Source of the DNA: Actinomycetota bacterium
Lineage (GTDB): Bacteria; Actinomycetota; Coriobacteriia; Anaerosomatales; UBA912
Reading direction: 5' to 3'
DNA: 54,704 nucleotides
Assembly: GCA_023488435.1 (NCBI GenBank)
Contig: JAMDCK010000009.1
Location: forward strand, 1 to 54,704
Shown here: in pieces, positions 3,854 through 45,380 of the stretch
How positions within the stretch are numbered: position 1 is the first letter of the stretch
Layout of the letters: the number at the start of each line of letters is the position of its first letter
Notes under the pieces: generated by a model
Databases searched by the model: none
The model's input: only the letters and a program-made list of their open reading frames with translations
What the model was told of the DNA's origin: nothing
Position numbers and translations under genes: made by a program

Positions 3854-3894
3854 CCAACTGTCAGGAGCGAATTTGCCAACCGGATCGGAGTCAG

Positions 3895-5028: not shown

Positions 5029-5029
5029 C

Positions 5030-6004: not shown

Positions 6005-6937
6005 GATCTCCATCTTCCTTCCCTCTTCGATGAAGAGGAAGTTGTGTGTGAGCAGGGTGTCCTCGCCGCTCTCAACTATGGCTTCCACCTCGGCAGGAAG
6101 AACCAGACGCATCGACTCATCGGCAGTCCACGCCTCGTAACCGCGCTCCCAGAAGATCTCGAATGTGGGAAGCAGATGCGGATTGATCGTTGTGCCCTTC
6201 GGTTGATGGGCCGTGATCGCTATCTCGACCATCCACACCGGTCTTGGCTCGGCGGACAAGAATGAAGTGGCTCCTTCGAGTGCCAGCTTTTCCGCCCCTT
6301 CGATGTCAACGAGAACAAGGCACTTCCTGCCTTGGAACCTCGATCCTAAGATGTTGTCCAGGGTCGATGTCGGGACGATTTCGACGTATCTCTCGGGAGT
6401 GTCGGCCCAACCCTTCACGAGCGACGCCCCCGTCCGTCCGCCGAATATCTCGATGACCCCCACTCTGTCGGATAGGGCCATCGGGAATATCTCGATCCTG
6501 TCCGTCCAGCCATTGGCCATGATGTTCTTGTAGAGATGCCGAAGATTGCCGCTCATCGGCTCGAAAGCGACAACGTGCTTCCCTCTTCGGAGGGCAAGAC
6601 AGCAGTAGTAGCCGATATTGGCACCGACGTTCACCACGACTTCGACGTTGTCGAGGATACTTCTCACGATCTCTGTCTCGACCGGCTCGAACAACCCCTT
6701 CTCCATCGCAGGGTCACCGATCAGTTTGAAGCCCATTGGGGTGTCCCTGGGTTCATCGACCATCGGCCTGTTGTCTCGCCTGTACTGGCAAGCCACGGCC
6801 AGTGTCGTGTTGCGCACCTTCGCACGGGCTTTCGCCCAGTAGTTATCCCTCATGTATCGATAAACCCTGGCCAAAGCGGGCAAGCGCCCAACGACCACCG
6901 GCCTTACGAACAGTATGAACTTCTTTACGACACTCAC
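5993..6937 (-). CDS. FkbM family SAM-dependent methyltransferase
   Basis: A 314-residue protein with the FkbM methyltransferase core. 'EVVVNVGANIGYYCCLALRR' is SAM motif I, 'HVVAFEPMSGNLRHLYKNI' is motif II, and 'CLVLVDIEGAEKLALEGA' is the conserved family segment. About 90 residues precede the core. The start is GTG at 6937, whose first bases overlap the stop of the upstream thiamine-enzyme gene (GTGA), with GGAGG about 10 bases before it. It is therefore the last gene of the long minus-strand nucleotide-sugar operon and probably methylates the sugar made there. It shares little sequence with the other FkbM protein at 771-1508 outside the core motifs. Confidence 0.85.
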   Translation of the reverse strand: MSVVKKFILFVRPVVVGRLPALARVYRYMRDNYWAKARAKVRNTTLAVACQYRRDNRPMVDEPRDTPMGFKLIGDPAMEKGLFEPVETEIVRSILDNVEVVVNVGANIGYYCCLALRRGKHVVAFEPMSGNLRHLYKNIMANGWTDRIEIFPMALSDRVGVIEIFGGRTGASLVKGWADTPERYVEIVPTSTLDNILGSRFQGRKCLVLVDIEGAEKLALEGATSFLSAEPRPVWMVEIAITAHQPKGTTINPHLLPTFEIFWERGYEAWTADESMRLVLPAEVEAIVESGEDTLLTHNFLFIEEGRKMEILPA

Positions 6938-9983: not shown

Positions 9984-9996
9984 AGGTGCACCTTTC

Positions 9997-11124: not shown

Positions 11125-11879
11125 GGCGCCTCTCCTGAATCCCACAAAGCCTCCAGGTGCATCTTGTCACGCAGGGTGTCCATCGGCTGCCAGAAGCCCG
11201 TGTGCTTGTAGGCGCCCAACTGTCCATCGCGCGCCAGCGATTCGAGCGGCTCGCGCTCCAATATCGTGTGATCGTCGACGAGCCTGCCAAGGACCTCGGG
11301 CTCCAGCACGAAGAAGCCGCCGTTGACCCAATCCCCGTCGCCGAGCAGCTTCTCTCGGAAGTTCGCGACGCTGTCGTTGGAGCCGAGCTCAAGGGCACCG
11401 AAGCGGCCCGATGGCAGCACCGCAGTCAGCGTGCCGAGGCGCCCTGAGGAGCGATGGAAGTCGATGAGTCGCCCGATGTCGATGTCCGCGACGCCGTCGC
11501 CGTAGGTGAGCATGAAGGTCTGATCGCCGATGAATGAGGCGACGCGCTTCAGGCGTCCGCCGGTCATTGAGTCCTGCCCGGTGTCGACGATCGTCACGCG
11601 CCAGGGCTCGTTGCCGTCCTGGTGCACCTCGGTAGAGTGCGTGCAAAGATCGAAGGTCACGTCGCAGTTGTGCAGCCAGTAGTTGTGGAAGTACTCCTTG
11701 ATTTGGTAGCCCTTGTAGCCAGCGCATATGATGAAATCGTTGAAGCCATAGTGGCTGTAGCCCTTCATGATATGCCAGAGGATCGGCTTGTCACCGACCT
11801 CGGCCATAGGCTTGGGTCGCGTGCCCGTCTCCTCCGAAAGGCGTGTCCCCATTCCGCCTGCCAGGATCACAACCTTCAT
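11109..11879 (-). CDS. ddhA: Glucose-1-phosphate cytidylyltransferase
   Basis: A 256-residue nucleotidyltransferase, matching the 257 residues usual for RfbF/DdhA. It begins 'MKVVILAGGMGTRLSEETG', continues with the 'RPKPMAEVGDKPILWHIMK' activation segment, and has 'FMLTYGDGVADIDI' with the catalytic aspartate pair. It makes CDP-glucose from CTP and glucose-1-phosphate, the first step of the CDP-deoxysugar route. The ATG at 11879 has AAAGGAG 8 bases upstream, which decides against the longer frame to 11945. It follows the RmlD-like gene by 13 bases and overlaps ddhB. Confidence 0.95.
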   Translation of the reverse strand: MKVVILAGGMGTRLSEETGTRPKPMAEVGDKPILWHIMKGYSHYGFNDFIICAGYKGYQIKEYFHNYWLHNCDVTFDLCTHSTEVHQDGNEPWRVTIVDTGQDSMTGGRLKRVASFIGDQTFMLTYGDGVADIDIGRLIDFHRSSGRLGTLTAVLPSGRFGALELGSNDSVANFREKLLGDGDWVNGGFFVLEPEVLGRLVDDHTILEREPLESLARDGQLGAYKHTGFWQPMDTLRDKMHLEALWDSGEAPWKVW

Positions 11880-11892
11880 CCGCGGGCTCCTT

Positions 11893-12783
11893 TCACGAAC
11901 CGTCGTATAAGCCTTCCGCCGTCTGCCACTCCTGTGCCAGCTCACTCAGCATCTCATCCCAGCTCGGGGGCGTCCAGCCGGTGCGCTCACGGAATCGCGT
12001 GCTGTCGAGCGAGCGGTCGATCACGGGCTCGTCGACCGAGGTGACCTCGACCTCCCACCCCAGATACCCCGCAAGTTTGGTGAGCAACGTGTGCTTGTCG
12101 ATCGGCTCGGCAGAGAGCTGCCACAGGCCGCTAAGCGTGGGGTCCGGCATCACGACGTCGCGCACCACCTCGACCAGCGCCCGAGTCGAAAGTCCGCTGA
12201 ACACGGCGTGCGTGTAGCCCTTGAGCGACTCGTGGCGATTCGCCGCGAACCAGCCGAGAAGCCCTGTCGGCTCGCCAAGCTGCCAGCCGATGATCGAAGT
12301 GCGCAGCGTCACTACGTGGGGGCTGTCGCCCACCTCGCCCAGCAGTTTCGATCGTCCGTACAGGTCGAAGGCGTCGGGCACGTCGGTCTCGGCGTATCCG
12401 CCGCGCGAGCCGGAGAACACGCAGTCGGTACTCACGTGCGCCAGGCGCGCGCCCACACGGGCGCAGGCGTCTGCAAGCGTGTGGGGCCACAGGCTGTTGA
12501 TGGTGATCGACGGGATCGCGTCCTTCGCTTCAGCCCGCTGCTTGATCACGCCGACCGCATTGATTACGAAGTCCGGGCGGACCCGCTCGAGCAAGTCATA
12601 GGCGGATTCGGGCCTCATCGCCTCCAGGCCGTCGACCACCGGCACCGCTTCGAGTCCCAGCGACGCAAGGTCCCGGGCGTCTCGGCAGGCAGCTACCACC
12701 TCGAAGTCGGGGGCCAGCACGCGCACCGCCTGATGCCCGAGCATCCCGCTGGCGCCGACCACAAGGATTCGCGGCCCGCTCAT
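11893..12783 (-). CDS. RmlD/WbvR-like nucleotide-sugar 4-reductase (SDR)
   Basis: A 296-residue extended SDR. 'ILVVGASGMLGHQAVRVL' is the NAD(P) motif, 'HVSTDCVFSGSRGGYAE' holds the catalytic Thr-Asp region and 'FDLYGRSKLLGE' the Y-x3-K. It resembles dTDP-4-dehydrorhamnose reductase and the UDP-sugar reductase WbvR. It lacks the C-terminal cupin domain of CapF, so if it works with the neighbouring CapE-like and WecB-like enzymes, the likely product series is UDP-L-rhamnosamine/quinovosamine rather than UDP-L-fucosamine. That product call is inference. The ATG overlaps the WecB-like stop by 4 bases. No rmlA, rmlB or rmlC is nearby, arguing against dTDP-rhamnose. Confidence 0.82.
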   Translation of the reverse strand: MSGPRILVVGASGMLGHQAVRVLAPDFEVVAACRDARDLASLGLEAVPVVDGLEAMRPESAYDLLERVRPDFVINAVGVIKQRAEAKDAIPSITINSLWPHTLADACARVGARLAHVSTDCVFSGSRGGYAETDVPDAFDLYGRSKLLGEVGDSPHVVTLRTSIIGWQLGEPTGLLGWFAANRHESLKGYTHAVFSGLSTRALVEVVRDVVMPDPTLSGLWQLSAEPIDKHTLLTKLAGYLGWEVEVTSVDEPVIDRSLDSTRFRERTGWTPPSWDEMLSELAQEWQTAEGLYDGS

Positions 12784-13853
12784 GCGATGCCCAGAACGAT
12801 GCGCGCCACGATGTCCGAGACGTTGTCAGCCATGTACTCGGCGGGTGGCGTCCAGGTGCCGCCCGAGTGCAGCGAAAGCTCGATCGCTGGCAGTATGCGG
12901 CTGGCCTCGACGCCCGCCAAGATGTTGCTGCCGCACTCGATGGTCTCCGGGCGCTCGGTGACATCGCGAAGCGTCACGGTCGGCACGCCGAAGATACAGC
13001 ACTCCTCCTGCACCGTGCCGCTGTCCGAAAGCACGCAGAAGGCGTCCTTCTCCAGGCGCACGAAGTCGAAGAGGCCCAATGGCGAGATGAAGGTCACGTT
13101 GCCTGCATCGATCCCGAACTCGCGCATCTTATCGGCGGTTCGGGGGTGCAGCGACGCCAGCGCGGGGATTCCGTATTTGTCGACGGCTGCATTGAGCGCA
13201 GCCACGAGCGATGCGAGTCGCTCGGGTACGTCGACGGTCTCGGCCCTGTGGGCCGTGACCAGGAAGTATCGGCCGGGCTCGACTCCGTGCTCCGTGAACG
13301 GGTCCGCAGCCTCGATCCGCCCATCGTAATGGTCGAGTACCTCTTTGATCGGGTTGCCGGTGACGTAGATGCGCTGCCGCTCGACGCCCTCGCGGACAAG
13401 GTTGGCGGCACTGCGATGCGTGTATGGCAGCAGCACCGAGCTGGAGTGGTCGATAACCCGGCGATTGATCTCCTCGGGCACCGAATCGTCGTAGCAGCGG
13501 TTGCCGGCCTCCATGTGGCACACCCGGATGCCCATCCGTTTGGCGATGATCGCGGCCAGGCCGGTGTTGGTATCGCCGAGCACCAGCACGGTGTCGGGCT
13601 TGTGCTCCGCGAGCACCGCCTCGGTCTTGGCGAGTATCTGCCCGATTTGATCGCCGAAGCCGTTGCCGCGCACCCCCATGTACACGTCAGGCTCGCGCAC
13701 GCCGAGTTCTCGGAAGAACACTCCGCTCAGACGGTCATCGTAGTTCTGGCCGGTGTGGACCAGGACGTGGTCGCAGTTGGCGTCCAGGGCCTCAATGACG
13801 CGCGAAAGCCTGATGATCTCCGGGCGCGTTCCCAGAAGAGTGAGCACCTTCAT
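12780..13853 (-). CDS. UDP-N-acetylglucosamine 2-epimerase family (WecB/CapG/WbvD-like)
   Basis: A 357-residue GT-B fold epimerase. 'VLTLLGTRPEIIRLSRVI' opens the protein, followed by 'VHTGQNYDDRLSGVFF', 'LVLGDTNTGLAAIIAKR' and 'CHMEAGNRCYDDSVPEEINR', all hallmarks of the 2-epimerase family. The C-terminal 'LSDSGTVQEECCIFGVPTV' binds UDP. The gene lies between a CapE-like dehydratase and a 4-reductase, so it probably epimerises the C2 of the 6-deoxy intermediate. The ATG at 13853 is chosen over ATG 13862 because GGAGG is 10 bases before the first and only 1 before the second. A longer frame reaching 14147 is antiparallel-like sequence within the capE-like gene and has no family match. Confidence 0.88.
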   Translation of the reverse strand: MKVLTLLGTRPEIIRLSRVIEALDANCDHVLVHTGQNYDDRLSGVFFRELGVREPDVYMGVRGNGFGDQIGQILAKTEAVLAEHKPDTVLVLGDTNTGLAAIIAKRMGIRVCHMEAGNRCYDDSVPEEINRRVIDHSSSVLLPYTHRSAANLVREGVERQRIYVTGNPIKEVLDHYDGRIEAADPFTEHGVEPGRYFLVTAHRAETVDVPERLASLVAALNAAVDKYGIPALASLHPRTADKMREFGIDAGNVTFISPLGLFDFVRLEKDAFCVLSDSGTVQEECCIFGVPTVTLRDVTERPETIECGSNILAGVEASRILPAIELSLHSGGTWTPPAEYMADNVSDIVARIVLGIA

Positions 13854-13858
13854 CCGTC

Positions 13859-14902
13859 TCATGCCTCCAGGTAGCGGTTGTCCATCGCCGAAGGGACCTT
13901 CTGCCTGAGGAACTCGCCCAGCTCGGACAGGTCCATCAGCGAGCCCTCGCTGCTGTACTCGCCGACGAGCGCTGGCGCATCGACGTGGTCCGCCAGCTCC
14001 GGCAGCATCGCGCGCAGGGCATAGTAGCCTTCTTCTCCCCAGACCGTCCGGGTCGCCTCTTCCTCGGAGAGCAGCGACTCGTGGATCTTCTCTCCCGGGC
14101 GGATGCCGGTAATCCCGGTCTCGATCGGGCGGTCGCCGATTAGACACGCTGCAAGCTCGGTCATCTTCGCACTGGGACAGCGCGGGATGTAGGTTTCACC
14201 GGGCTCGGCGGAACGCACCGCGGCCAGGATCGTATCGACTGCGTCATCGAGCGTGAGCAGGAATCGCGTCATCTCCGCAGTCGTGATTGTCACGGGTCCG
14301 CCAGCGGCAATCTGCTCGAGGAAGAGCGGGACCACCGAGCCGCGGGACGCAAGCACGTTACCGTAGCGCGCTGCGATGAATCGCGTCTGCGGGGCCCTGA
14401 GGTTGCCCTCGATGTAGATCCGCTCCTGGATTGCCTTGGTCATCCCCATGACGTTGACGGGCTTGCACGCCTTGTCGGTGGAGATCCCGACCACTGTTTC
14501 GACCGGCAGGTCGTTCTGCGCGATGACGCGCACGAGGTTCTCGGCACCTTCAATGTTGGTGCGGCAAGCCTCCCAAGGGAAGTACTCGCAGCTAGGCACC
14601 TGCTTGAGGGCGGCTGCGGCAAAGACGATGTCGGCGCCTTTGACTGCCCGAAGCAAGCTGGCCTCATCACGCACATCGCCAATCATGAACCTGAGTGCGT
14701 GCTTGGAGTTCTCAAAAATGATCTCATCAGTTGCTGTCGTACGCCGCATGAAGTCGAGGCGCATGAAGTGCTGCTTGGCCTCGTCACGCGAGAAGACGGT
14801 CACGCTCGCGGGAAGGCCCTCGGCACCGCAGAGCAGCCGCTTAGCGAGCGCTTGACCCAGTGAGCCGGTGCCTCCGGTGATCAGGATGTTCTTACCCTCC
14901 AT
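13859..14902 (-). CDS. UDP-GlcNAc 4,6-dehydratase (CapE/WbjB-like)
   Basis: A 347-residue SDR of the CapD/CapE group. The nucleotide motif is 'ILITGGTGSLGQALAKRLL', followed by 'VFSRDEAKQHFMRLDF'. The active region 'GISTDKACKPVNVMGMTKA' shows the methionine-x3-lysine (M-G-M-T-K) that replaces Y-x3-K in this subfamily. It removes water from UDP-GlcNAc, with or without C5 inversion, giving the 4-keto-6-deoxy sugar used by the next two genes. The start is uncertain: ATG 14902 fits the family's N-terminus, while TTG 14914 has AAGGAGG 4 bases upstream. The gene begins about 20 bases after galU. Confidence 0.87.
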   Translation of the reverse strand: MEGKNILITGGTGSLGQALAKRLLCGAEGLPASVTVFSRDEAKQHFMRLDFMRRTTATDEIIFENSKHALRFMIGDVRDEASLLRAVKGADIVFAAAALKQVPSCEYFPWEACRTNIEGAENLVRVIAQNDLPVETVVGISTDKACKPVNVMGMTKAIQERIYIEGNLRAPQTRFIAARYGNVLASRGSVVPLFLEQIAAGGPVTITTAEMTRFLLTLDDAVDTILAAVRSAEPGETYIPRCPSAKMTELAACLIGDRPIETGITGIRPGEKIHESLLSEEEATRTVWGEEGYYALRAMLPELADHVDAPALVGEYSSEGSLMDLSELGEFLRQKVPSAMDNRYLEA

Positions 14903-14924
14903 GGCTGCCGTCAAGATGCCTCCT

Positions 14925-15788
14925 TCAGTCACTGTCGAGCGAAGTCAACCTGCGGATACTCTCCCGCATCTGATCGCCGAACTTCTCGTCCTGGAGCGCA
15001 AGAGAGACGTTGGCCTCCAGCCATGAAATCATGTCCCCGGTATCATAACTGAGGCAGTCGATGGTGACGGCGAACAGCTCCTCTTTGCGTAACAACTGCC
15101 GAAGGGCGTCCGTGAGCTGGATCTCCCCGCCACGACCGGCGTCGACCTTGGGTAGGATCTCCATGATCGTCGGCGTCAACAGATATCTGCCGAAGATCGC
15201 AAGGTTACTAGGTGCTTCGTTGGCCGGGGGCTTCTCTACGAGATCGTTTATCTCCCACACTCCGGGCTCTACCTCTCTGCCCGAAATGATTCCGTACCGA
15301 GATACCTTGTTCGACTCGACCGGCACCACCCAAACGACCGACCCCCCGTACTTCTCGTGGACTTCCTTCATCCGGGGCAGGCAATCGTTATGCGGCACTA
15401 GGACGTCGCCAAGCATCACGAAGAACGGATCGGGCCCAACGAAGGGCGCACCGCACAAGACGGCGTCACCCAGTCCGCGCGGTGTCTTCTGCCGAACGTA
15501 GAAGATCTGGGCGAGCTCGGAAATCCTACGGATCTCGCGCACCTTCTGCGTGTTGCCTGAGCGCTCCAGCATATCCTCGAGCTCTAGGGACCGGTCGAAG
15601 TGGTCCTCGATGGCGCGCTTGCCTCGGCCGGTGATGAGCAGGATGTCTTCGGCGCCTCCAGCCACCGCCTCCTCGACCACATACTGAATTACGGGCTTCT
15701 CGACCACAGGCAGCATCTCTTTGGGCTGCGACTTGGTCACCGGCAAGAACCTGGTGCCCAATCCAGCAGCGGGAATGATGACCTTCAT
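14925..15788 (-). CDS. galU: UTP--glucose-1-phosphate uridylyltransferase
   Basis: A 287-residue nucleotidyltransferase with 'MKVIIPAAGLGTRFLPVTKS' and 'QPKEMLPVVEKPVIQYVVEE' at the N-terminus, 'FFVMLGDVLVPHNDCL' in the centre and 'YGIISGREVEPGVWEINDLV' further on, all standard for GalU. It makes UDP-glucose for glycan synthesis. AGGAGGAG lies about 10 bases before the ATG. Only 15 bases separate it from hemL, so it may be transcribed from the heme operon as well as from a local promoter. I see no terminator in that gap. Confidence 0.95.
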   Translation of the reverse strand: MKVIIPAAGLGTRFLPVTKSQPKEMLPVVEKPVIQYVVEEAVAGGAEDILLITGRGKRAIEDHFDRSLELEDMLERSGNTQKVREIRRISELAQIFYVRQKTPRGLGDAVLCGAPFVGPDPFFVMLGDVLVPHNDCLPRMKEVHEKYGGSVVWVVPVESNKVSRYGIISGREVEPGVWEINDLVEKPPANEAPSNLAIFGRYLLTPTIMEILPKVDAGRGGEIQLTDALRQLLRKEELFAVTIDCLSYDTGDMISWLEANVSLALQDEKFGDQMRESIRRLTSLDSD

Positions 15789-17115: not shown

Positions 17116-18465
17116 TTAGGAAGTAGGCTTCCACCCGGTCGGTTCGTAGATGCAGTATGGCTCCGCCTCTAGGTAGTCGCCTGTGATCTCAAGCGATCTT
17201 GCGCGACATCCTCCACAGACCGCCTTGTACTCGCACGCCCCACACTTGCCTTTGAGCAGCGAATAGTCCCGCAGGTCGTTGAAGACCTTGCTCTCGGTCC
17301 AGATTTCAGAGAACGGCTGTTCCTTTACATTCCCCAACTGCATGTCGAAATACCCGCAAGGTTGGATGTCTCCGGTGTGGCTGATGAAGCAGAAGGTTAT
17401 CCCGCCAAGACACCCGCGCGTCATCGCGTCCAGCCCATACTCCTCGCGGGTGACCTTGCGGCCCTCCTTTTTGGCGAGCTGGCGGATGATCCGGTAGTAG
17501 TGAGGCGCATCCGTCGGCTTGAAGTGCAGCGGGCTCGTCTTCTGGCGCTCGTACGCCCACTCCAGCACGCGCTCGTACTCCTGCGGAGGGAGCTCCTCGG
17601 CGAGTATCTCGGCGCCTCGACCGGTCGGGACCAGCATGAAGATGTGGAACGCATCGACGCCGAGGGACTCAGCGAGCGTATGGATCTCCTCGAGGTATTC
17701 GGCGTTGCGAGTGGTGACCGTGGTGTTGATCTGCACGCCGACACCGTGGCGCTTGGCGATCTTGATGCCTTCGATCGTCTGCTCGAAGCAGCCGGGCTGG
17801 CCTCGGAAGGTATCGTGGCCCTCGGCGGTCGGGAAGTCTATCGAGACCGATATCCGAGGGATTCCGTGAGAGGCCATCTTGCCGGCTATCTCGTCGGTGA
17901 TCATGGTCGCGTTGGTGCCGATGACGGGCATACCGCCCTTTTCGTGCACGTAGTCGACGATCTCCCAGATGTCAGGGCGCATGAGCGGCTCGCCGCCGGT
18001 GAGGATGAAGATCGGGTTGGAGATCGTCACGATGTCGTCGATGACAGTCTTGATCTGGTCGAGAGTGAGCTCGCCCTCGTAGTGTCCGAACTCGGCTGCG
18101 GCGCGACAGTGGACGCACGACAGGTTGCAGCTGCGAGTGATCTCCCAGGCGATGATACGCGGGGCCTTGATGCCAGTGCGCTCCTCGTACGCAAGTGCCT
18201 GCGGGCCGCCTCCGGGCCGAAAGCCCGTCGAGCGCGCGCCGCCATGGCGCTGGCGGGTCATCGGGACTCCGGCGGGATGTCCGCCCGGAGCGCCGCCTGG
18301 GTGGACGGCTACGGCGACCCCTACTGTGCCGCAGGGTGCGCCCGCCTCGGCGAGCTCCTGTTCGTCGGGAGTGAACCTGCGCCCGTGATGGCGTGCCTGG
18401 GCCTCATCGCTGCAGCCTGCACAGCCTTCATCGGGTCGACCTGAGTGCTCGTCAGTGTGGCTCAT
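17116..18465 (-). CDS. ahbD: AhbD-like radical SAM/SPASM protein (heme synthase of siroheme route)
   Basis: A 449-residue radical SAM protein. The SAM cluster motif C-x3-C-x2-C is C113, C117, C120 in 'EITRSCNLSCVHCRAAAEFG', followed by 'IFILTGGEPLMRPD'. The C-terminal SPASM-type cysteines are in 'GCLGGITFCF', 'GDIQPCGYFDM' and 'KCGACEYKAVCGGCRA'. AhbD decarboxylates the two propionates of Fe-coproporphyrin to give heme; the position among hemB, hemL, hemA, hemC and hemD fits this. The related NirJ and AhbC cannot be excluded by eye. The first 100 residues are an unusual Cys/His/Gly-rich extension (C15, C18, C45). ATG 18465 lies 10 bases after hemB; ATG 18258 near residue 70 is the main alternative. 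Confidence 0.78.
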   Translation of the reverse strand: MSHTDEHSGRPDEGCAGCSDEAQARHHGRRFTPDEQELAEAGAPCGTVGVAVAVHPGGAPGGHPAGVPMTRQRHGGARSTGFRPGGGPQALAYEERTGIKAPRIIAWEITRSCNLSCVHCRAAAEFGHYEGELTLDQIKTVIDDIVTISNPIFILTGGEPLMRPDIWEIVDYVHEKGGMPVIGTNATMITDEIAGKMASHGIPRISVSIDFPTAEGHDTFRGQPGCFEQTIEGIKIAKRHGVGVQINTTVTTRNAEYLEEIHTLAESLGVDAFHIFMLVPTGRGAEILAEELPPQEYERVLEWAYERQKTSPLHFKPTDAPHYYRIIRQLAKKEGRKVTREEYGLDAMTRGCLGGITFCFISHTGDIQPCGYFDMQLGNVKEQPFSEIWTESKVFNDLRDYSLLKGKCGACEYKAVCGGCRARSLEITGDYLEAEPYCIYEPTGWKPTS

Positions 18466-18475
18466 GCGGTCGGAA

Positions 18476-19456
18476 TCATCCCTTCGCGAGCCAGCGTGCG
18501 GCATCTTTGGCGTGGTATGTGAGGATCATGTCGGCACCGGCACGCTTGAGGCTGGTAAGCGTCTCGAGCACGACTCGCCGCTCGTCGATCCAGCCATTGA
18601 GAGCAGCAGCCTTGACCATCGCGTATTCGCCGCTCACGTTGTATGCCGCGGTCGGGTAACCGAACTCGTCTTTGACCCTGCGGATGATATCCATGTATGC
18701 GAGCGCAGGCTTGACCATCACGATATCAGCCCCTTCGGCGATATCGAGCGCGGTCTCGCGCAACGCCTCCTCGCTGTTAGCGGGATCCATCTGGTAGCCC
18801 TCTCGGTCGCCGAAGGTGGGCGCGCTGTCCGCCGCATCCCGAAACGGCCCGTAGTAAGCACTCGCGTACTTCGCCGAGTAGGCCATGATCGGAACTGCCG
18901 AGAACCCCTCGGCGTCCAGCGCGGTGCGGATCGCTCCGACCCGTCCGTCCATCATGTCGCTGGGGGCCACCATGTCTGCGCCCGCCTCGGCATGGCTGAC
19001 GGCGGTGGCGGCAAGCAGCTCAAGGGTGACGTCGTTGATGACGCTGCCCTTCTCGTCGAGAAGTCCGCAGTGCCCATGGGCTGTGTACTCGCAGAGGCAA
19101 ACGTCGGTGATGACGAAGAAGTCGGGTGCGTGTTGCTTGATTGCCGAAACTGCCTGTTGGACTATGCCATCGGTGGCGTAAGCGCCGGTACCAGCCTCAT
19201 CCTTGGATTCGGGCAGGCCGAAGAGGATGACCGCGGGGATGCCAAGCGAGCGAAGCTCGTCGATCTCGCCGGGCAACTGGTCAAGTGAGAGCTGATAGAC
19301 CCCCGGCATCGACGCCACCCCGTCTCGATGGCCCGTCCCGGGCTTCACGAAGAGCGGGTATATCAGGTCATTTGTGTCCAGAACGGTTTCGCGCACCATC
19401 GATCGCAGTGTCTTGCTGGAGCGAAGCCGCCTGGGGCGATACTCTGGGAACTTCAT
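18476..19456 (-). CDS. hemB: Porphobilinogen synthase (5-aminolevulinate dehydratase), zinc type
   Basis: A 326-residue TIM-barrel enzyme that joins two aminolevulinates into porphobilinogen. The three zinc cysteines of the metal-dependent class are present (C120, C122, C130 in '[14 protein letters not shown]'), and the two active-site lysines are K196 ('AYSAKYAS') and K249 ('[10 protein letters not shown]'). Length and order match the family. The ATG at 19456 follows the small membrane protein gene by 14 bases, and the AhbD-like gene follows closely, so all are probably one transcript. Confidence 0.96.
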
Positions 19457-19470
19457 GATCGATCGACCGC

Positions 19471-19800
19471 CTAATCAACGAACTTGTCGGTCTTGATCGG
19501 CCGCTTGCCCGCTGGCTCTTCCGCATCGTCTTCGGCGTCGTCTTCATCGTATCTCCAGCCATCATCGCCATCACTCGGCTGTGTTGTGCCATGAGAGGCC
19601 GCATGAACGGCACCATGGTGAACTGCATGCTTGCTGCAGCACTTTCCGGTGTGATGGTTCACGGCACGCCTGAGTATCAGAATGGCCCAGATTGCGATGA
19701 TCGGGATGACGATCCAGTAGAGAACCTGAGCAATCGAACCGAAGTAGAACATGAACTCCTGGAACTGAGCCTGAAAACCGGTAGGACCTGTAGCGCCCAT
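19471..19800 (-). CDS. Small single-pass membrane protein with His/Cys-rich and acidic tail
   Basis: A 109-residue protein of unknown function. The N-terminal 20 residues are polar-aromatic, followed by one membrane helix of about 23 residues ('[20 protein letters not shown]'). After it comes a short basic stretch and the segment '[20 protein letters not shown]', which packs six histidines and two cysteines and could bind a metal or heme. The last 40 residues are mostly Asp and Glu, ending in a short basic motif. The ATG at 19800 has AAGGAG 6 bases upstream; a longer frame running to 19953 crosses the tRNA gene and is not real. It lies between the tRNA and hemB in the heme run. A role in heme or metal handling is only a guess from position and composition. 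Confidence 0.7.
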
Positions 19801-19875
19801 TCTGTGCTCCTTACTGTCGGGTGTACAAAACCGCTGGCCAAGACAACCATACTGAGTTGCCCTGGGGACTAAACA

Positions 19876-19951
19876 TGGTGGAGACGAGCGGATTCGAACC
19901 GCCGACCTCTGCCGTGCGAAGGCAGCGCTCTCCCAGCTGAGCCACGTCCCC
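19876..19951 (-). tRNA. tRNA-Ala (CGC anticodon)
   Basis: The 76-base sequence folds as a full cloverleaf. The acceptor stem GGGGACG pairs with CGTCTCC and contains the G3:U70 wobble that identifies alanine tRNAs. The D stem is GCTC/GAGC, the anticodon stem CTGCC/GGCAG encloses TTCGCAC with anticodon CGC, and the T loop is GGTTCGAATCC. The CCA end is encoded. It reads the alanine codon GCG, frequent in this GC-rich genome. It lies inside the heme gene run, between hemD and the small membrane protein gene. Confidence 0.95.
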
Positions 19952-19988
19952 ATTCGAACGTTCCGTCCTAGCTGGACGGCAAGGCAAC

Positions 19989-20017
19989 AGTGTGCCTAGC
20001 ATCGTGCTTATTGTCAA
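19989..20017 (-). promoter_or_regulatory. Candidate promoter of tRNA-Ala
   Basis: On the minus strand a perfect -35 TTGACA (20012-20017) is separated by 17 bases from CACACT (19989-19994), a 3-of-6 match to the -10 consensus. Transcription would start about 30 bases before the tRNA. It could also drive the small protein, hemB, ahbD and hemL downstream. Confidence 0.4.
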
Positions 20018-20025
20018 CGCAGCAC

Positions 20026-20826
20026 TCACGTTTTTCGCCCCGCAGAAACCCACTCCGCTATGGCCTCAACGAGCCCACCAACAGTGTGAGGATTCGCCTC
20101 TGCGGCCACGGTGTACCCAGCTGAGACGATCGCATCGGAAGTCACCGGACCAATCGAGGCCAGTGCGACACGGGTCAACGCGTCCTCAGCCTCGGTGTTG
20201 GCCGCAAGTCGCAAGAAACCGCTGACTGTGGATGGCGAGGTGAACGTAACCGCATCAACGCCTCCCTCGGCAAGGCGCGCCAGGGTCTGCGCGTCTCCGT
20301 CACCCACCACAGTGCGGTAGACCGGAGCCACATCCACCGATGCGCCCATCGCACGCAGTGTCTCGGGCAACACCTCGCGCGCCCTGAGCGCACGCGGCAG
20401 CAGAATCCGGCATCCCTCGCCGACTCCCGCCCGCTCGAATGCGTCAATGAGCCCTTCGGCGACGAAGTCATCGGGCACTAGGTCCGCCGTCAGGTCGTGT
20501 TGAGCAAGCAACGCTGCCGTCGAAGTGCCCACGGTCGCGATGCGTGCGCTTCGAAGGCTCTGGGGCTCTCGACCCAGGGCTTGCATCCGCGCAAGGAAGC
20601 ATCTGACCGCATTCGCCGAAGTGAACACGACCCAGTCATAGACCGCCAGACTCCCAATAGCTGTGTCAGCCGCGGCCCAGTCCGGCGGGTCAACGGTCTT
20701 TATCACCGGGAACTCAAGCACGCTGGCACCCGCCGATTCGAGTGCGGTGACAAGCTCTGCCGCCTGATGCCTTGCGCGGGTCACGACGATCGTGAGTCCT
20801 GTGAGCGGCTTGTCGGCGGAGTGCAA
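20026..20826 (-). CDS. hemD: Uroporphyrinogen-III synthase
   Basis: A 266-residue protein with the two-lobed HemD fold. 'LTIVVTRARHQAAELVTALE' is the typical start, 'YDWVVFTSANAVRCFLARM' and 'VDAVTFTSPSTVSGFLRLA' are the paired lobe motifs, and 'ALASIGPVTSDAIVSAGYTV' is the C-terminal family signature. It closes and inverts ring D of hydroxymethylbilane. Unlike many actinobacteria and clostridia, it is not fused to a uroporphyrinogen methyltransferase. The start is uncertain: TTG 20826 has GAGG 8 bases upstream, while ATG 20856 would overlap hemC by 20 bases without a ribosome site. Confidence 0.9.
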   Translation of the reverse strand: MHSADKPLTGLTIVVTRARHQAAELVTALESAGASVLEFPVIKTVDPPDWAAADTAIGSLAVYDWVVFTSANAVRCFLARMQALGREPQSLRSARIATVGTSTAALLAQHDLTADLVPDDFVAEGLIDAFERAGVGEGCRILLPRALRAREVLPETLRAMGASVDVAPVYRTVVGDGDAQTLARLAEGGVDAVTFTSPSTVSGFLRLAANTEAEDALTRVALASIGPVTSDAIVSAGYTVAAEANPHTVGGLVEAIAEWVSAGRKT

Positions 20827-20836
20827 GGAGCGAGCC

Positions 20837-21799
20837 TCAGCTTCCCAGCAAGCCATCGACGCTGTCGGCGCAACGGATCTCGGCGAGTATCTCTGTCGCA
20901 CCGAGTTCGCGCAGGCGAGCGACCATCGCATCGCCCAGTCCGACGGGATCGACGACGGGACCGCTCAGCGTGTCCCTGACGATGCGCTTCCCGTCGATCG
21001 AACCAACGAGCGCATCCATCACCAGCAGGTCGCCCTCGATGCGGGCGTTGGCGCCGATGGGTACCTGGCAGCCGCCCTCGAGCGAGCGCATGACGACCCG
21101 CTCGGCAGTGATGCAGGTGAAAGTCTCCGGATCATTGAGCTTCTCGCAGACGTCGAGCATGAAGGCGTCGTCCTCGCGGATCTCGACCGCGATCGCGCCC
21201 TGCCCCACCGCCGAGACCATCTGACCTGGATCGATGTAATGCGAGATGCGATCCGCCCAGCCGAGGCGAGCGATCCCGGCCGCAGCCAAGATGACGGCGT
21301 CGACCTCGCCTTCTTCGGCCTTGCGCATGCGTGTGTCAAGGTTCCCCCGTACGTCGACGATCTCGAGGTCCTCGCGGAGCGCAAGCACCTGAGCGCGGCG
21401 TCGCAGACTGCTCGTCCCGAGCTTGGCGCCCACCGGCAAGCTAGCCAGATCGAAGCTGCCGGGACCCGACACGAGCACATCGCGCGCATCGACCCTAGGC
21501 GGCGTAGCCGCTATGACGCAGCCTTCCGGGAGCTCGGTAGGGACGTCCTTCATCGAGTGGACACACAGGTCCACCATGCCTGCCAGAAGCTCCACTTCCA
21601 GCTCCTTGGTGAACAGCCCTTTGCCCCCCACCTTGGCCAGCGGGACGTCGAGTATCTTGTCGCCCGTGGTCTTGATGGTCTTGAGCTCGACCGGAAGTCC
21701 CGTAATCGACTCGAGCATCTGCTTTATGTAGTTCGACTGCCAGAGAGCCAGTTGGCTGCCTCTGGTGCCGATGACAAGTTTATCCCGGTCCACTGCCAA
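20837..21799 (-). CDS. hemC: Hydroxymethylbilane synthase (porphobilinogen deaminase)
   Basis: A 320-residue enzyme that polymerises four porphobilinogens. 'LVIGTRGSQLALWQSNYIK' opens the protein, 'GDKILDVPLAKVGGKGLFTK' and 'DLCVHSMKDVPTELPEG' build the active site, and the dipyrromethane cofactor is attached to C244 in 'LEGGCQVPIGANA'. TTG 21799 is taken as start because GGAG lies 6 bases upstream; GTG 21793 would shorten it by two residues. It sits between hemA and hemD in the usual hemACD order. Confidence 0.95.
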   Translation of the reverse strand: MAVDRDKLVIGTRGSQLALWQSNYIKQMLESITGLPVELKTIKTTGDKILDVPLAKVGGKGLFTKELEVELLAGMVDLCVHSMKDVPTELPEGCVIAATPPRVDARDVLVSGPGSFDLASLPVGAKLGTSSLRRRAQVLALREDLEIVDVRGNLDTRMRKAEEGEVDAVILAAAGIARLGWADRISHYIDPGQMVSAVGQGAIAVEIREDDAFMLDVCEKLNDPETFTCITAERVVMRSLEGGCQVPIGANARIEGDLLVMDALVGSIDGKRIVRDTLSGPVVDPVGLGDAMVARLRELGATEILAEIRCADSVDGLLGS

Positions 21800-21848
21800 G
21801 AATCTCTCCCATCTCTATCCCTCCAGGTCCGATGCCCGGAAGTAGGTG

Positions 21849-23180
21849 CTACTTTCGGTCTATCTTTCCAAGAAGGCTTCGCAAGAGTCCCAGGTGTGGA
21901 TTCTTCCCATCCGGGTTCGAGTCGAGGCCGTAGAGATACCTAGCGGCTTCCACATAGGCGACTCCGTACCTGTCGCCTGCTGCGGTCTTGAGTCGATTCG
22001 TGGGACCATGGAGCATCTTGTTGACGATCGATGCGGTCAGTGCCTCGACTGTCTGGATCTCCTTCTCCGAAAGGCCGCCAAGTCGCTTGAGGGCCTTCTC
22101 CATCTCGGTCTGTCGAATGCGCTCGGCCTTGGCTCGCATGGCGGCGACCGTTGGAACGACCTCCATCGAGTCAAGCCAAGTCTCGAAGGCGGTGATCTCC
22201 TCGGCGATTATCGCCTCGACACGCTTCGCCTCTTGCATGCGGTCGGATAGGTTCGACTGAACGACGCCGTTGAGACTGTCGATATCGTAGAGGAAGACGT
22301 CGTCCACGTTGTTGACCTCAGGGTCGATGTCACGAGGCACTGCGATGTCGATGAAGAACAGTGGACGGCCGCGACGGCCGCGCATGACCTGGGCGACTTC
22401 CTCGGCGGTGACCACGTACTCCGTAGCGGCTGTCGAGGAGATCACGATGTCCGCGTCACCCATACGCTCGAAGAGTCGATCGTAGCTAACGGGCTCCCCG
22501 CTACAGCGCTCGGCCAACTCACACGCGCGCTCGTAGGTACGGTTCGTGACGAACACCTTCGCCACGCCGTTGCATACGAGATGACGTGCAGTAAGCTCAC
22601 TCATCTTCCCGGCGCCGAGAAGTAGCACGACTCGACCGGACAGGTCGTCGAAGACTTTCTTGGCGAGTTCGACAGCCGCATAACTTACCGAGACGGCCGA
22701 TTCCCCAATGGCTGTCTCGCTCCTTACCCTTTTGCCGACCTCGAAGCTCTGTCGGAAAAGCTTGTTGAACACGCGCCCAGTCCCGTTGTGTTCGAAGCTG
22801 AGCTCATAAGCTTCCTTGAGCTGGCCGAGGATCTGCGCCTCGCCGATCACCATCGAATCAAGCGACGACACCACGCGAAACAGATGGCGGACGACGTCTT
22901 CTCCTCGGCGGGAGTACAGGTACTTCTCGAGCACGTCACGCGGGAGGGAGTGGTAGTCGACAAGGAAGCTGACGATCGCGTCGAGGCCGTCGTCCTCGGT
23001 TGCGGTAACGGCGTAGATCTCAGTGCGATTGCAAGTCGAGACGATGACCGCTTCGATCACGTCGGAGCCGTCCGTCAGTAGCCCTATGGCCTCTTCCTGT
23101 ACGTTGGCAGGAAAAGTCAGTTTCTCACGTATGTCTACGGGTGCCGTTTTGTGGCTCAGCCCGACCAGCGTCAGGTGCAT
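21849..23180 (-). CDS. hemA: Glutamyl-tRNA reductase
   Basis: A 443-residue enzyme reducing glutamyl-tRNA(Glu) to glutamate-1-semialdehyde. The catalytic cysteine is C50 in 'VIVSTCNRTEIY', 'GLSHKTAPVDIREKLTF' is the N-terminal signature, and 'VVLLLGAGKMSELTARHL' binds NADPH. The helical C-terminal dimerisation domain is complete. The ATG at 23180 matches family starts; the longer frame to 23252 has no support. The ribosome site is weak (GAGG 13 bases away). The 222-base gap upstream is the longest in the window and contains a perfect 15-base palindrome, so hemA probably begins its own transcript. Confidence 0.96.
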   Translation of the reverse strand: MHLTLVGLSHKTAPVDIREKLTFPANVQEEAIGLLTDGSDVIEAVIVSTCNRTEIYAVTATEDDGLDAIVSFLVDYHSLPRDVLEKYLYSRRGEDVVRHLFRVVSSLDSMVIGEAQILGQLKEAYELSFEHNGTGRVFNKLFRQSFEVGKRVRSETAIGESAVSVSYAAVELAKKVFDDLSGRVVLLLGAGKMSELTARHLVCNGVAKVFVTNRTYERACELAERCSGEPVSYDRLFERMGDADIVISSTAATEYVVTAEEVAQVMRGRRGRPLFFIDIAVPRDIDPEVNNVDDVFLYDIDSLNGVVQSNLSDRMQEAKRVEAIIAEEITAFETWLDSMEVVPTVAAMRAKAERIRQTEMEKALKRLGGLSEKEIQTVEALTASIVNKMLHGPTNRLKTAAGDRYGVAYVEAARYLYGLDSNPDGKNPHLGLLRSLLGKIDRK

Positions 23181-23402
23181 TCGATTTCTGTCGCCTCGCA
23201 GTTCGCTGGAAAAAGGTCGCCCCCGCCGGATTGGTGCGTGTTGTTCAGGCAAGCAGGTCCGGCGGGAGCGAAATCAAGTACACATTATGTGTAACTGTCG
23301 CACAACCCTGCACTTCACCTGAACGCTCCTGATTCTATCGCTTCAGTCCAGTACAGGCAACCTAAACCGCCGAAACAAACACGCGGATCCGGGTTCCTCA
23401 GG
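23181..23402. other. 222-base gap upstream of hemA
   Basis: The gap separates the SDR gene from hemA, both on the minus strand. It carries the palindrome at 23279-23293 and a CATAAT within it that could be a -10. I see no convincing reading frame, no T-rich terminator after the SDR gene and no known riboswitch fold. Confidence 0.5.
23279..23293. promoter_or_regulatory. 15-base palindrome upstream of hemA (candidate operator)
   Basis: TACACAT and ATGTGTA form a perfect 7-base inverted repeat around one central base, about 100 bases before the hemA ATG. On the minus strand it contains CATAAT, a 5-of-6 match to the -10 consensus, so a bound protein would block polymerase. The -35 (TGCAGG, 17 bases up) is weak. 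The regulator is unknown. Rex, DtxR/IdeR and FNR consensus sites do not match well. Confidence 0.4.
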
Positions 23403-42079: not shown

Positions 42080-43222
42080 TTGAGCTGCTATGTTATCGGC
42101 GCTGGAAAAACCCGCTTCGGCCCTTCCACTCATGCGATGCCCCGTCTCGCACAAGAGGCCATTCTCGGCGCCCTGGATGATGCGGGGATGTCGATAGAGG
42201 ATATCGAGGCGTTCATTGTCGCCAATTTCCTCGGCGGGCCTAACGAGTCCCAACTACACCTCAACTCTGTGATTGCTGGCCTGTTTCCAGGTGTGCGGCG
42301 ACCGGGCTGGCGAGTGGAAGCAGCGTGCGCTTCCGGAGGAGCGGCGGTGCATCAAGCGGTCCACATGCTGGCTGCTTACGATCCCATCCTGGTCATCGGG
42401 GTTGAGCGGCTATCCGGCCGTCCGACCGGTGAACTCACCCGCAACATCGGCATGGCCGGAGATGTGATCCTCGATCAGCTGCAGGGACTGAACTTTCCCG
42501 CATCCTACGCCCTGGTAGCTCAGCGTCACATGCAGCGATACGGCACACGCACCGACGACTTCGAGATCCTCAGCCTCAAGAACCACGCCAATGCACAGCT
42601 CAATCCGCTGGCCCACTTCTATCACAAGCAGGTGAGCCAGGCCGATATAGATTGCGGGGCGACCGTTGCTACTCCACTGCGACTGTTCGATTGCTGCCCT
42701 GTGTCTGACGGTGCTTCGGCAGTGATTCTGTCGGCGGAGGCGAAGGATGCACGCAGCGTGCCTTTGATCGGCACCGGATTGAGCACGGATGTCATCTCAC
42801 TGGCACAGCGCGACGAGCACGACACGTTCGCCAGCGCGCGCGAGGCGGCACGGATGGCCTACGCCCAGGCCGGGATATCCCCGTCGGACATCGATCTCGC
42901 CGAGGTTCACGATTGCTTCACCATCGCCGAGATCGTGGCAATGGAGGATCTTGGGCTGGCCGCTCCCGGAGAAGCCGTCGATCTCATCCGAGCCGGGCAA
43001 ACGAGTACCGGCGGCGAGCTGCCGATCAATCCGAGCGGCGGCCTGAAGGCTGGCGGACACGCTATCAGCGCCACCGGCGTCGGTCAGGTGTACGAAGCCT
43101 GCCAACAACTCAGAGGCGAGGCCGGGGATCGCCAAGTGCGTGATGCACGCGTGGCCGTGACCCACAATGTCGGTGGCGTCGGCGGAACCTGCGCAGTGCA
43201 GGTCCTAGGGAGGCCCTCATGA
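42080..43222 (+). CDS. Thiolase family protein (SCP-x/acetyl-CoA acetyltransferase type)
   Basis: A 380-residue thiolase-fold protein. The nucleophilic cysteine is C83 in 'WRVEAACASGGAAVHQAV'. The other catalytic residues are in 'DLAEVHDCFTIAEIVAMEDL', 'GGLKAGGHAISATGVGQVY' and 'THNVGGVGGTCAVQVLG'. It is closest to the SCP-x-like branch, whose members often need a zinc-ribbon/OB-fold (DUF35) partner; here that domain is at the start of the next protein. It should condense or cleave acyl-CoA units. The start is TTG 42080 with AAAGG 9 bases upstream. The next gene overlaps by 4 bases. Confidence 0.87.
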   Translation: MSCYVIGAGKTRFGPSTHAMPRLAQEAILGALDDAGMSIEDIEAFIVANFLGGPNESQLHLNSVIAGLFPGVRRPGWRVEAACASGGAAVHQAVHMLAAYDPILVIGVERLSGRPTGELTRNIGMAGDVILDQLQGLNFPASYALVAQRHMQRYGTRTDDFEILSLKNHANAQLNPLAHFYHKQVSQADIDCGATVATPLRLFDCCPVSDGASAVILSAEAKDARSVPLIGTGLSTDVISLAQRDEHDTFASAREAARMAYAQAGISPSDIDLAEVHDCFTIAEIVAMEDLGLAAPGEAVDLIRAGQTSTGGELPINPSGGLKAGGHAISATGVGQVYEACQQLRGEAGDRQVRDARVAVTHNVGGVGGTCAVQVLGRPS

Positions 43223-44328
43223 GTGTGCGGTCATGCCAGGGTTGCGGACGCAGGTACGGCTATCCATTCGATGAGTGCACCGTCTGTCGTTCCCCTCTCG
43301 CCGAGACCGGAGAGCGAAGCGGGAAGGTCATCGCAGTCACCGAAGTCGCCGCGCCATCGCTGGGGCACGAGGACGTGCCTTACTGGTGTGCGCTTGTGAT
43401 GCTCGATGACGGCGGCCACGCAATCTCGAAACACGACGCGCCTGTTGCGATCGGCGATAAGCTGAGCCTCGGTGCCGGACAGACAGCGGCAGAATATCGC
43501 ATCGGTATAGTGGGGTCGGGCGTGATGGCGCGTGGCTTGGTGGAACTCTTCTTGGCAAGAGGTCTCGAGGTGGTCTGGGTGGCTCGCTCACTGGAGCGCC
43601 TGGAGATCGCCAAAGCCAAGGTCGAGTCACGACTAGTGCGCGTCATGGACGACGAACAACTCGCCGTCGCACTCTCAAGCTTGGCCCTCTCAGACGATCT
43701 TGCGAGCTTAGCCGAGTGCGATCTGGTGATTGAAGCAGTCGTAGAAGAGGTCGAACCGAAGCTTGCGGTATTGCGCAGCATAGAGCAGGCCGTTTCTTCC
43801 GAGTGTCTCATCGCCACGAACACCTCCTCGCTCCCTCTCGATGTTCTCGCCAGCGCACTCGAGCACCCGATGCGCTTCGGGGGAATGCACTTCTTCAACC
43901 CGCCGATCAGGATGCGGCTCGTGGAAGTCGTGCGGGCGCCCCAGACCGATGATGATACTGACGAGCGGCTGTTCGAGCTGAGCCTAGCGCTTGGTAAGAT
44001 CCCAGTCCGAGTAGCCAACAGCCCCGGGTTCGTCGTCAACAGAGTTCTGATGCCGCTGCTCAACGAGGCTGTTCGCGCACTCGAGGATGGCGTCGCGCCC
44101 GCCGAGGACATCGATGAGGCCATTCGCCTTGGACTGAACCACCCGATGGGCCCGTTGGCCCTTGCCGATTTGATCGGACTGGATGTCGTCGTCAACATCA
44201 TGGACGACCTACATGATCGGCTTGGGGATACTGCCTACGCGCCTAGACCGATGCTTCGGCAATTGGTCGAGGAAGGTAAATCCGGCCGCAAAGCCGGCGA
44301 AGGATTCTACGACTACTCGGTGCAATAG
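43219..44328 (+). CDS. Zinc-ribbon/OB-fold domain fused to 3-hydroxyacyl-CoA dehydrogenase
   Basis: A 369-residue two-part protein. Residues 1-25 are a zinc ribbon (C6, C9, C20, C23 in 'SCQGCGRRYGYPFDECTVC'), and about 30-85 look like the OB-fold of DUF35 proteins. From about 94 a 3-hydroxyacyl-CoA dehydrogenase begins ('YRIGIVGSGVMARGLVELFL'), with the catalytic histidine-containing 'RFGGMHFFNPPIRMRLVEVV', 'NSPGFVVNRVLMPLLNEAVR' and 'GKSGRKAGEGFYDYS'. It oxidises 3-hydroxyacyl-CoA with NAD. The fusion replaces the separate DUF35 partner of SCP-x-like thiolases, suggesting that the two proteins form one complex that passes the ketoacyl product along. The ATG overlaps the thiolase stop (ATGA). 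An intrinsic terminator follows. Confidence 0.85.
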   Translation: MSVRSCQGCGRRYGYPFDECTVCRSPLAETGERSGKVIAVTEVAAPSLGHEDVPYWCALVMLDDGGHAISKHDAPVAIGDKLSLGAGQTAAEYRIGIVGSGVMARGLVELFLARGLEVVWVARSLERLEIAKAKVESRLVRVMDDEQLAVALSSLALSDDLASLAECDLVIEAVVEEVEPKLAVLRSIEQAVSSECLIATNTSSLPLDVLASALEHPMRFGGMHFFNPPIRMRLVEVVRAPQTDDDTDERLFELSLALGKIPVRVANSPGFVVNRVLMPLLNEAVRALEDGVAPAEDIDEAIRLGLNHPMGPLALADLIGLDVVVNIMDDLHDRLGDTAYAPRPMLRQLVEEGKSGRKAGEGFYDYSVQ

Positions 44329-44331
44329 CTG

Positions 44332-44397
44332 TTGACAGGGCACAGGCCGAAGAGCAGTATGGTTGTCAGATTACCCCTGTGCTGAGGTGCAGGGCGC
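44332..44397 (+). other. Short structured intergenic stretch before the terminator
   Basis: Just after the dehydrogenase stop is a perfect TTGACA (44332-44337), but the best -10 candidates (CAGTAT at 17 bases, TATGGT at 20) are poor. CACAGG (44341-44346) can pair with CCTGTG (44376-44381). This could be a small RNA ending at the terminator at 44430, or simply a 3' UTR. No known family was recognised. Confidence 0.2.
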
Positions 44398-44430
44398 GAA
44401 ACCGTCCACCAGGGCGGTTTCTGCTTTTCT
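44398..44430 (+). terminator. Intrinsic terminator after the thiolase operon
   Basis: GAAACCG (44398-44404) pairs with CGGTTTC (44415-44421), enclosing a 10-base loop, and TGCTTTTCTG follows. It lies in the 119-base gap between the convergent dehydrogenase and nadC genes and would stop plus-strand transcription. Confidence 0.65.
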
Positions 44431-44447
44431 GCGATCCACTCTCCGCC

Positions 44448-45380
44448 TCAGCCCTCGTCCAGCCCGTAATCCAGCGGCGGCGCGAGGGTGAGCGCACTCG
44501 TCGAGACCCTGTCGACCCCGACCTCGCGAAGCGCCGCGAGCCGTTCGAAAGCCACCGATCCGCTCGCCTCGATGAGCACCTGAGCCCCACGCCGAGCGGC
44601 AACCTCGCGCACGACCCCGATCGCATGCTTGAGTGCAGCGTCATCCATGTTGTCGAGCAACAGCATGTCCGCGCCTGCGGCGACGGCCTCGATGGCCTGC
44701 TCGGCGGCATCGGCCTCGACCTGCACCCGAAGGCCCGGTGCGTGCGTGCGCGCCGTGACGACGGCTTCGGCGATCGACCCGGCGAAGCGGATGTGGTTGT
44801 CCTTGACGAGCACCATGTCGTACAGCCCCACGCGGTGGTTATGCGCGCCGCCGATGCGCACGGCGTACTTCGAGAGGCCACGCAGCCCGGGCAGCGTCTT
44901 GCGGGTGTCGACGACCGCGAGCCCGTCGCCCGCCTCGGCCTGCCAGCGCGCAGCCGTCGTGGCGACGCCTGAGAGCACCATGAGCGCATTGAGCGCACTC
45001 CGCTCGCCAGCGAGGACCGCTCGCGCAGGACCGCTCACGCGCGCGACCGCGATACCCGCCGAGACACCCGTGCCCTCCAGCAGCAGCGGCTCGACCTCGA
45101 CTCCGCGAGCAAGCCCGACTGCCGAGGAGAGCATCTCCCACACCCGCGCAGCAATCGGCAGGCCGCACAGCACGCCTTCGGAGCGCAGGACGATGCGGCC
45201 CTCGAAGACTGCGTCCGCCGGGACGAGCGCTGCCGAGGTGACGTCGCGGTCGAGCAGATCGGGCGCGCCGCCGGGGATGCGCAGCAGTGAGGCGTCGACG
45301 CCGAGGTCTTCGGCGAGTGCGAGCGCGATGATGTCGTCGGCGGGCGGGACCTCGACGAGCGGTCGCTGGTGGCCGGTCAT
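44448..45380 (-). CDS. nadC: Nicotinate-nucleotide pyrophosphorylase (quinolinate phosphoribosyltransferase)
   Basis: A 310-residue type II phosphoribosyltransferase. 'VVDTRKTLPGLRGLSKYAVR' and 'GGAHNHRVGLYDMVLVKDNH' are the quinolinate-binding hallmarks, and 'VEADAAEQAIEAVAAGADML' with 'IEASGSVAFERLAAL' complete the barrel. It makes nicotinate mononucleotide from quinolinate and PRPP. The first 15 residues are slightly longer than usual. The ATG overlaps the nadB stop by 4 bases. It is the last gene of the panB-panC-nadA-nadB-nadC operon. Confidence 0.95.
   Translation of the reverse strand: MTGHQRPLVEVPPADDIIALALAEDLGVDASLLRIPGGAPDLLDRDVTSAALVPADAVFEGRIVLRSEGVLCGLPIAARVWEMLSSAVGLARGVEVEPLLLEGTGVSAGIAVARVSGPARAVLAGERSALNALMVLSGVATTAARWQAEAGDGLAVVDTRKTLPGLRGLSKYAVRIGGAHNHRVGLYDMVLVKDNHIRFAGSIAEAVVTARTHAPGLRVQVEADAAEQAIEAVAAGADMLLLDNMDDAALKHAIGVVREVAARRGAQVLIEASGSVAFERLAALREVGVDRVSTSALTLAPPLDYGLDEG

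Follow-up and report, generated by a model that had tools for sequence, protein, structure and literature searches.

The window, by which we mean the entire analysed stretch of 54,704 nucleotides (contig JAMDCK010000009.1 of an Actinomycetota bacterium), carries on its forward strand a gene for an SCP-x-type thiolase of the acetoacetyl-CoA type (42080 to 43222, 380 aa, TTG start; family profile and Pfam Thiolase_C_1, E 6.8e-46), directly followed by an open reading frame of 369 codons (43219 to 44328, +). The two genes overlap by four nucleotides, the ATGA at 43219 to 43222 (+) comprising both the start codon of the second gene and the stop codon of the thiolase, and a probable ribosome-binding site of the second gene (AGGGAGG, 43207 to 43213, +) lies within the 3' end of the thiolase gene. 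The four-nucleotide overlap is kept in most relatives as well, and the translation of both genes is likely coupled. The second gene encodes a fusion of a DUF35 zinc-ribbon/OB unit (approximately residues 1-84), a linker of about nine residues and a complete 3-hydroxyacyl-CoA dehydrogenase (3HCDH, residues 94-367). A previous sequence-only reading of this DNA had proposed such a fusion overlapping a thiolase gene, and its coordinates, the overlap and the four zinc-ribbon cysteines C6, C9, C20 and C23 were all recovered at the positions given there. An AlphaFold2 model of the whole fusion showed a mean pLDDT of 85.7, with low values only in a loop at residues 46-52 and in the linker at residues 85-91.

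The N-terminal domain comprises a zinc ribbon (residues 1-30, 43219 to 43308, +), in which the cysteines are arranged as C6-x2-C9 and C20-x2-C23, followed by an OB-fold domain with a conserved GHEDVPYW loop (residues 33-84, 43315 to 43470, +). The four cysteines and their spacing are invariant in 16 species, and the same holds true for the loop residues H50, P54 and Y55 among the fusions. The domain search that the sequence-only reading had called for fully bore out the dehydrogenase part, but the N-terminal part to a limited extent. PF01796 matched residues 34-82 of the window fusion with an E value of 8e-4 and 19.7 bits, the family members scoring 19.7-22.7 bits compared to a curated cut-off of 27.1 bits, and was matched in 10 of 16 relatives with a best E value of 3.8e-6. 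PF12172, the zinc-ribbon family, showed no match in the window fusion and weak matches in 3 of 16 relatives, so that the two Pfam families together did not reach their curated cut-offs. Such a cut-off is a detection threshold and not a structural feature. The expectation that residues 30-90 adopt an OB fold was supported by two further approaches: a search of the PDB with the family profile ranked the DUF35 chain 6ESQ_E first (E 1e-3) and PhlB second, and in a fold search with the predicted domain the top 18 matches were all DUF35 chains, with a probability of 1.00 and E values of about 1e-3 at TM scores of about 0.5, the latter two being moderate. The OB strands are present in the predicted models, and the gene adjoins a partner of the thiolase superfamily in all 16 species. 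Based on the structure predictions and the profiles, the N-terminal domain is therefore classified as a short, divergent DUF35 domain.

The linker (residues 85-93, 43471 to 43497, +) is marked by the low pLDDT values and by its near-constant length, the distance from G79 to G99 being 19-21 residues in all 14 aligned full-length fusions. It leads into the NAD-binding domain of the dehydrogenase (residues 95-267, 43501 to 44019, +; PF02737, E 1.5e-48) with the catalytic residues S203, H224 and E236, and further to the C-terminal substrate and dimerisation domain (residues 270-366, 44026 to 44316, +; PF00725, E 1e-36) with N274. Both the GxGxxG-type motif and the Ser/His-Glu/Asn catalytic set are present, and G99, G101, S203, H224, E236 and N274 are invariant among the fusions. 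The nearest families among NCBIfam models, PDB sequences and PDB folds are 3-hydroxybutyryl-CoA dehydrogenases; the top match of the fold search was the (S)-3-hydroxybutyryl-CoA dehydrogenase 6aa8 with 42% identity. The best NCBIfam match, the 3-hydroxybutyryl-CoA dehydrogenase subfamily PRK05808, reached 293 bits and thus remained under its cut-off of 408 bits, so that the substrate is presumed from these relationships. Dehydrogenases of the 3HCDH family yield the S isomer.

For the partner enzyme, a PDB search with the family profile ranked the archaeal acetoacetyl-CoA thiolase 6ESQ_A first (E 2e-89); with the single sequence, the acetyl-CoA acetyltransferase 7YVY outranked 6ESQ_A. In addition to the Thiolase_C_1 match, the protein shows the nucleophilic cysteine C83 and the histidines H277 (HDCF) and H327 (GGH) of SCP-x-type and archaeal acetoacetyl-CoA thiolases. 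Ltp2 is an aldolase lacking this cysteine; since C83, H277 and H327 are invariant, the partner is a thiolase and not an Ltp2-like aldolase. The thiolase and DUF35 profiles independently ranked first two subunits of one and the same solved complex, 6ESQ_A and 6ESQ_E. The domain content and the link to an SCP-x-type thiolase are thus well supported by homology.

Among 298 genomes of the class Coriobacteriia, the fusion was found in 16 species, all within the order of the window, and it lies directly downstream of an orthologous thiolase gene in 16 of 16; these holders include one with a frameshifted copy (G093) and one in which the gene is cut by a contig end (G129). The dehydrogenase domains of the fusions form one clade (support 100/100), and the fusion arose once. 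The occurrence in 16 species, the conserved cysteines and spacing, and the single clade exclude chance, an assembly artefact or an isolated event. In the frameshifted case (L057 7225-9194; L014), the fusion loses its reading frame after approximately residue 196, and the thiolase coding sequence is divided between frames, which reflects either a decaying copy or sequencing errors. A scan of genome contigs showed full-length fusions solely in Coriobacteriia and related Actinobacteria MAGs, namely UBA912, UBA2272, UBA6100, HGW-Actinobacteria-7 and an uncultured Coriobacteriia MAG; the order in question may be the Anaerosomatales (OPB41). Across 396 genomes of the phylum, DUF35 was found as a stand-alone protein, mostly beside a thiolase and never beside a 3HCDH dehydrogenase. 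In a second phylum (195 genomes, 31 of them with DUF35), none of the 47 stretches examined in a search run with a positive control contained a 3HCDH close to DUF35, and thiolase-DUF35 fusions were present. Since other phyla were covered by the contig scan and this one second phylum, further fusions may exist elsewhere. One candidate, L033, which matched from residue 25 onwards, was rejected, as it represents an ordinary hydratase-dehydrogenase. As a separate observation, a MAG of the Deltaproteobacteria/Myxococcota encodes a thiolase-like protein fused to two tandem DUF35 units (L098 1441-3177).

While the thiolase and the fusion are the only element conserved across all loci, genes for the synthesis or N-acylation of amino sugars flank the pair in most relatives. 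The clearest case is G079 (L056 4775-11886), in which RmlB, RmlA, the thiolase, the fusion, a VioB-family protein, a DesI-like protein and a GT2 glycosyltransferase are encoded in this order on one strand. Here, the dTDP-glucose 4,6-dehydratase (TIGR01181), RmlA (TIGR01207) and the NeuD/PglB/VioB-family acyltransferase (TIGR03570) scored over their cut-offs, and the DesI-like 4-aminotransferase is a best match under the cut-off. Judged from its gene content, this array is a candidate pathway for N-(3-hydroxybutyryl)-viosamine in an actinobacterium. In G077 (L062) the pair is accompanied by a LegB-like dehydratase, an epimerase, a PglD-like protein, a DesI-like aminotransferase and a GT2 glycosyltransferase, and in G040 (L063) by a flippase, an aminotransferase, a methyltransferase and a VioB-family gene. 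A PIG-L protein and an LpxD-like hexapeptide protein are encoded near the pair in four further genomes (G013, G057, G115, G129), and an HGSNAT-like membrane acyltransferase adjoins the fusion in six (G141, G065, G147, G085, G025, G075), in some of them together with PIG-L. A strict partnership with HGSNAT was rejected, since the local subtype is present in 7 of 16 holders and lacking in the window genome; Fisher values, which presuppose an assumed size of the order and disregard phylogeny, were left aside. Since surface-polysaccharide genes are common, some of these neighbourhoods could have arisen by chance, and the argument from the sugar context appears strongest for the three operon-like cases G079, G077 and G040.

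In the window itself, the fusion gene has no adjoining sugar genes, and nadC starts 120 bp downstream (44328-44448). In a member of the same genus, the fusion and nadC are separated by HGSNAT-like and PIG-L genes (L018 7119-9222), and the same two genes lie beside the fusion in a sister genus (L051), while no HGSNAT-like gene was found in the window genome. Apparently, about 2 kb with both genes were recently lost from the window locus. That the pair persists without these neighbours means either that another acyltransferase uses the product or that the link to sugars is not general. A surface-polysaccharide cluster is located at 735-15788 of the window, comprising glycosyltransferases, a flippase, a TPP enzyme, a DegT aminotransferase, NDP-sugar dehydratases and epimerases, and FkbM methyltransferases; no VioB-like gene was found among the open reading frames scanned there (0.7-15.8 kb). 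Further along, the window contains a tetrapyrrole run (17116-23252; ALAD, HemD, GlutR), close to which a radical SAM/SPASM protein and a class-III aminotransferase are encoded.

Based on these findings, the two genes probably encode a compact two-protein 3-hydroxybutyryl-CoA synthase. The thiolase would condense two molecules of acetyl-CoA to acetoacetyl-CoA, while the DUF35 domain of the fusion would dock on the dimeric thiolase, in the manner seen in the solved thiolase-DUF35 complexes of archaea and bacteria, and thereby keep the dehydrogenase beside the thiolase, near its exit. There, the dehydrogenase would at once use NAD(P)H to reduce acetoacetyl-CoA to (S)-3-hydroxybutyryl-CoA, which would pull the unfavourable condensation forward. 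The formation of the complex is taken by analogy from these solved structures, and the direction of the reaction, the substrate length and the cofactor are likewise presumed ones. That two proteins form one unit for both catalytic steps, an idea already part of the sequence-only reading, is well supported by the homology to these complexes. The direct passing of the intermediate, also suggested there, is possible since the linker comprises only about nine residues of near-constant length, although we consider channelling of acetoacetyl-CoA by the pair rather doubtful. In several relatives, the product would most likely serve as the donor in the N-acylation of a surface-glycan amino sugar. For the family as a whole we slightly favour such a role as acyl donor for surface amino sugars, and for the window genome this destination is less probable than for the family. 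The most far-reaching version, in which DUF35 positions a tethered thiolase and reductase for direct transfer of acetoacetyl-CoA and the system evolved in Coriobacteriia to supply 3-hydroxybutyryl groups, on a CoA basis and free of ACP, for the N-acylation of surface glycans, is speculative and, taken in all its parts, unlikely.

The metabolic setting limits the possible fates of the product, on which the sequence-only reading had not commented. The fusion is the sole full-length 3HCDH in the genomes searched and carries the only DUF35 of the window genome, and the thiolase paired with it is the sole PF22691 member there, as is also the case in 7 of 8 holders; a second, short and partial Thiolase_N match in the window genome is probably KAS III-like. 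Crotonase (PF00378) was found neither in the window genome nor in 7 holders, and neither acyl-CoA dehydrogenase (PF00441) nor PHA synthase (PhaC) in 14 genomes, these tests spanning 10-14 genomes, some of them incomplete. Since these enzymes are absent from the genomes tested, beta-oxidation, crotonase-based butyrate formation and PHB are unlikely fates: a role in butyrate formation or beta-oxidation was rejected for want of crotonase and acyl-CoA dehydrogenase, and PHB synthesis for want of PhaC and in view of the S isomer.

The same absences bear on a catabolic use of the pair, in which the dehydrogenase would oxidise 3-hydroxybutyryl-CoA derived from imported 3-hydroxybutyrate or another source to acetoacetyl-CoA and the thiolase would cleave the latter to two acetyl-CoA, with DUF35 acting as a tether only. 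Both enzymes are reversible, these two activities also occur together in beta-oxidation complexes, and the dehydrogenase matches FadB. However, no crotonase or acyl-CoA dehydrogenase that could feed such a unit was found in the genomes tested, and the neighbours in the relatives are glycan genes instead of CoA-transferases, ligases or transporters, which renders this direction improbable. A synthesis of another, branched or longer 3-hydroxyacyl-CoA for a lipid or a secondary metabolite would agree with the varying substrates of SCP-x thiolases, e.g. benzoylsuccinyl-CoA in 7PXP, and neither chain length nor product can be read from the sequence; nevertheless, the nearest solved relatives are an acetoacetyl-CoA thiolase (6ESQ) and a 3-hydroxybutyryl-CoA dehydrogenase, and we assign little probability to this explanation. 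Finally, the short and divergent DUF35 domain with its weak Pfam scores could be a relic that no longer binds the thiolase and leaves the dehydrogenase to act alone, which is very improbable given the invariant cysteines and H50/P54/Y55 loop, the fixed spacing and a thiolase gene that is always there and always adjacent.

The preferred function, synthesis of 3-hydroxybutyryl-CoA, can be compared with several known systems. DUF35 domains connect dimers of thiolase-fold proteins with their partner enzymes (PMC12329534, PMC11321319, PMC6996347), and the archaeal complex of thiolase, DUF35 and HMG-CoA synthase (6ESQ) channels acetoacetyl-CoA according to the account given in PMC12329534. As in that complex, DUF35 would here link a thiolase to an enzyme using acetoacetyl-CoA; in contrast to it, the second enzyme is a dehydrogenase instead of HMG-CoA synthase and is fused to DUF35. 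Shy-Sal, the bile-acid hydratase-aldolase of Comamonas and a relative of Ltp2-ChsH2, likewise carries DUF35 at the N-terminus of a catalytic protein and docks on a thiolase-fold partner encoded adjacently (PMC11321319), but differs in its MaoC hydratase cargo, its aldolase partner and its linker of 26 residues compared to about nine. Although tethered, Shy-Sal does not channel and releases approximately 93% of the intermediate, and whether DUF35 complexes channel or merely tether was raised as an open question in the same work (PMC12329534). With its linker of about nine residues, a cheap assay using NADH and acetyl-CoA, and 16 divergent orthologues, the present natural fusion represents a good test case for this question. 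If the proposed function is true, the two genes would also provide a supply of 3-hydroxybutyryl-CoA useful for metabolic engineering, and an acylated amino-sugar pathway would be predicted for uncultured actinobacteria.

With regard to the sugar link, VioS, VioR and ACP of the Pseudomonas viosamine island (vioA, vioB, vioM, vioS, vioR, acp) were proposed as suppliers of the 3-hydroxybutyryl group (PMC3927599). The arrays of G079 and G040 resemble this island in a putative two-step 3-hydroxybutyryl supply to an amino sugar beside an aminotransferase and a VioB acyltransferase, while the island employs KAS III, a FabG-like reductase and ACP where the arrays encode a thiolase of the CoA-based type and a dehydrogenase fused to DUF35. 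Complexes of the FadB/FadA type also hold a hydroxyacyl-CoA dehydrogenase with a thiolase, but comprise another thiolase family, a crotonase domain and another scaffold, and no beta-oxidation genes were found in the tested genomes with the present pair.

The sequence-only reading had regarded the layout as undescribed. This holds for the exact combination, since a literature search for DUF35 joined to 3HCDH yielded no description, but not for the general design: enzyme-DUF35 fusions that bind to thiolase-like partners have been described, namely Shy and ChsH2 (PMC11321319), and a work of 2010 mentions DUF35 joined to short-chain (Rossmann) dehydrogenases, thiolases, SCP2 and hot-dog domains (PMC2954200). 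The short-chain dehydrogenase fusions share with the present one the joining of DUF35 to an oxidoreductase related to acyl-CoA, whereas 3HCDH is a separate dehydrogenase family. Altogether, the fusion, whose exact layout is undescribed as far as searched, extends the known scaffold principle of DUF35 to the 3HCDH family.
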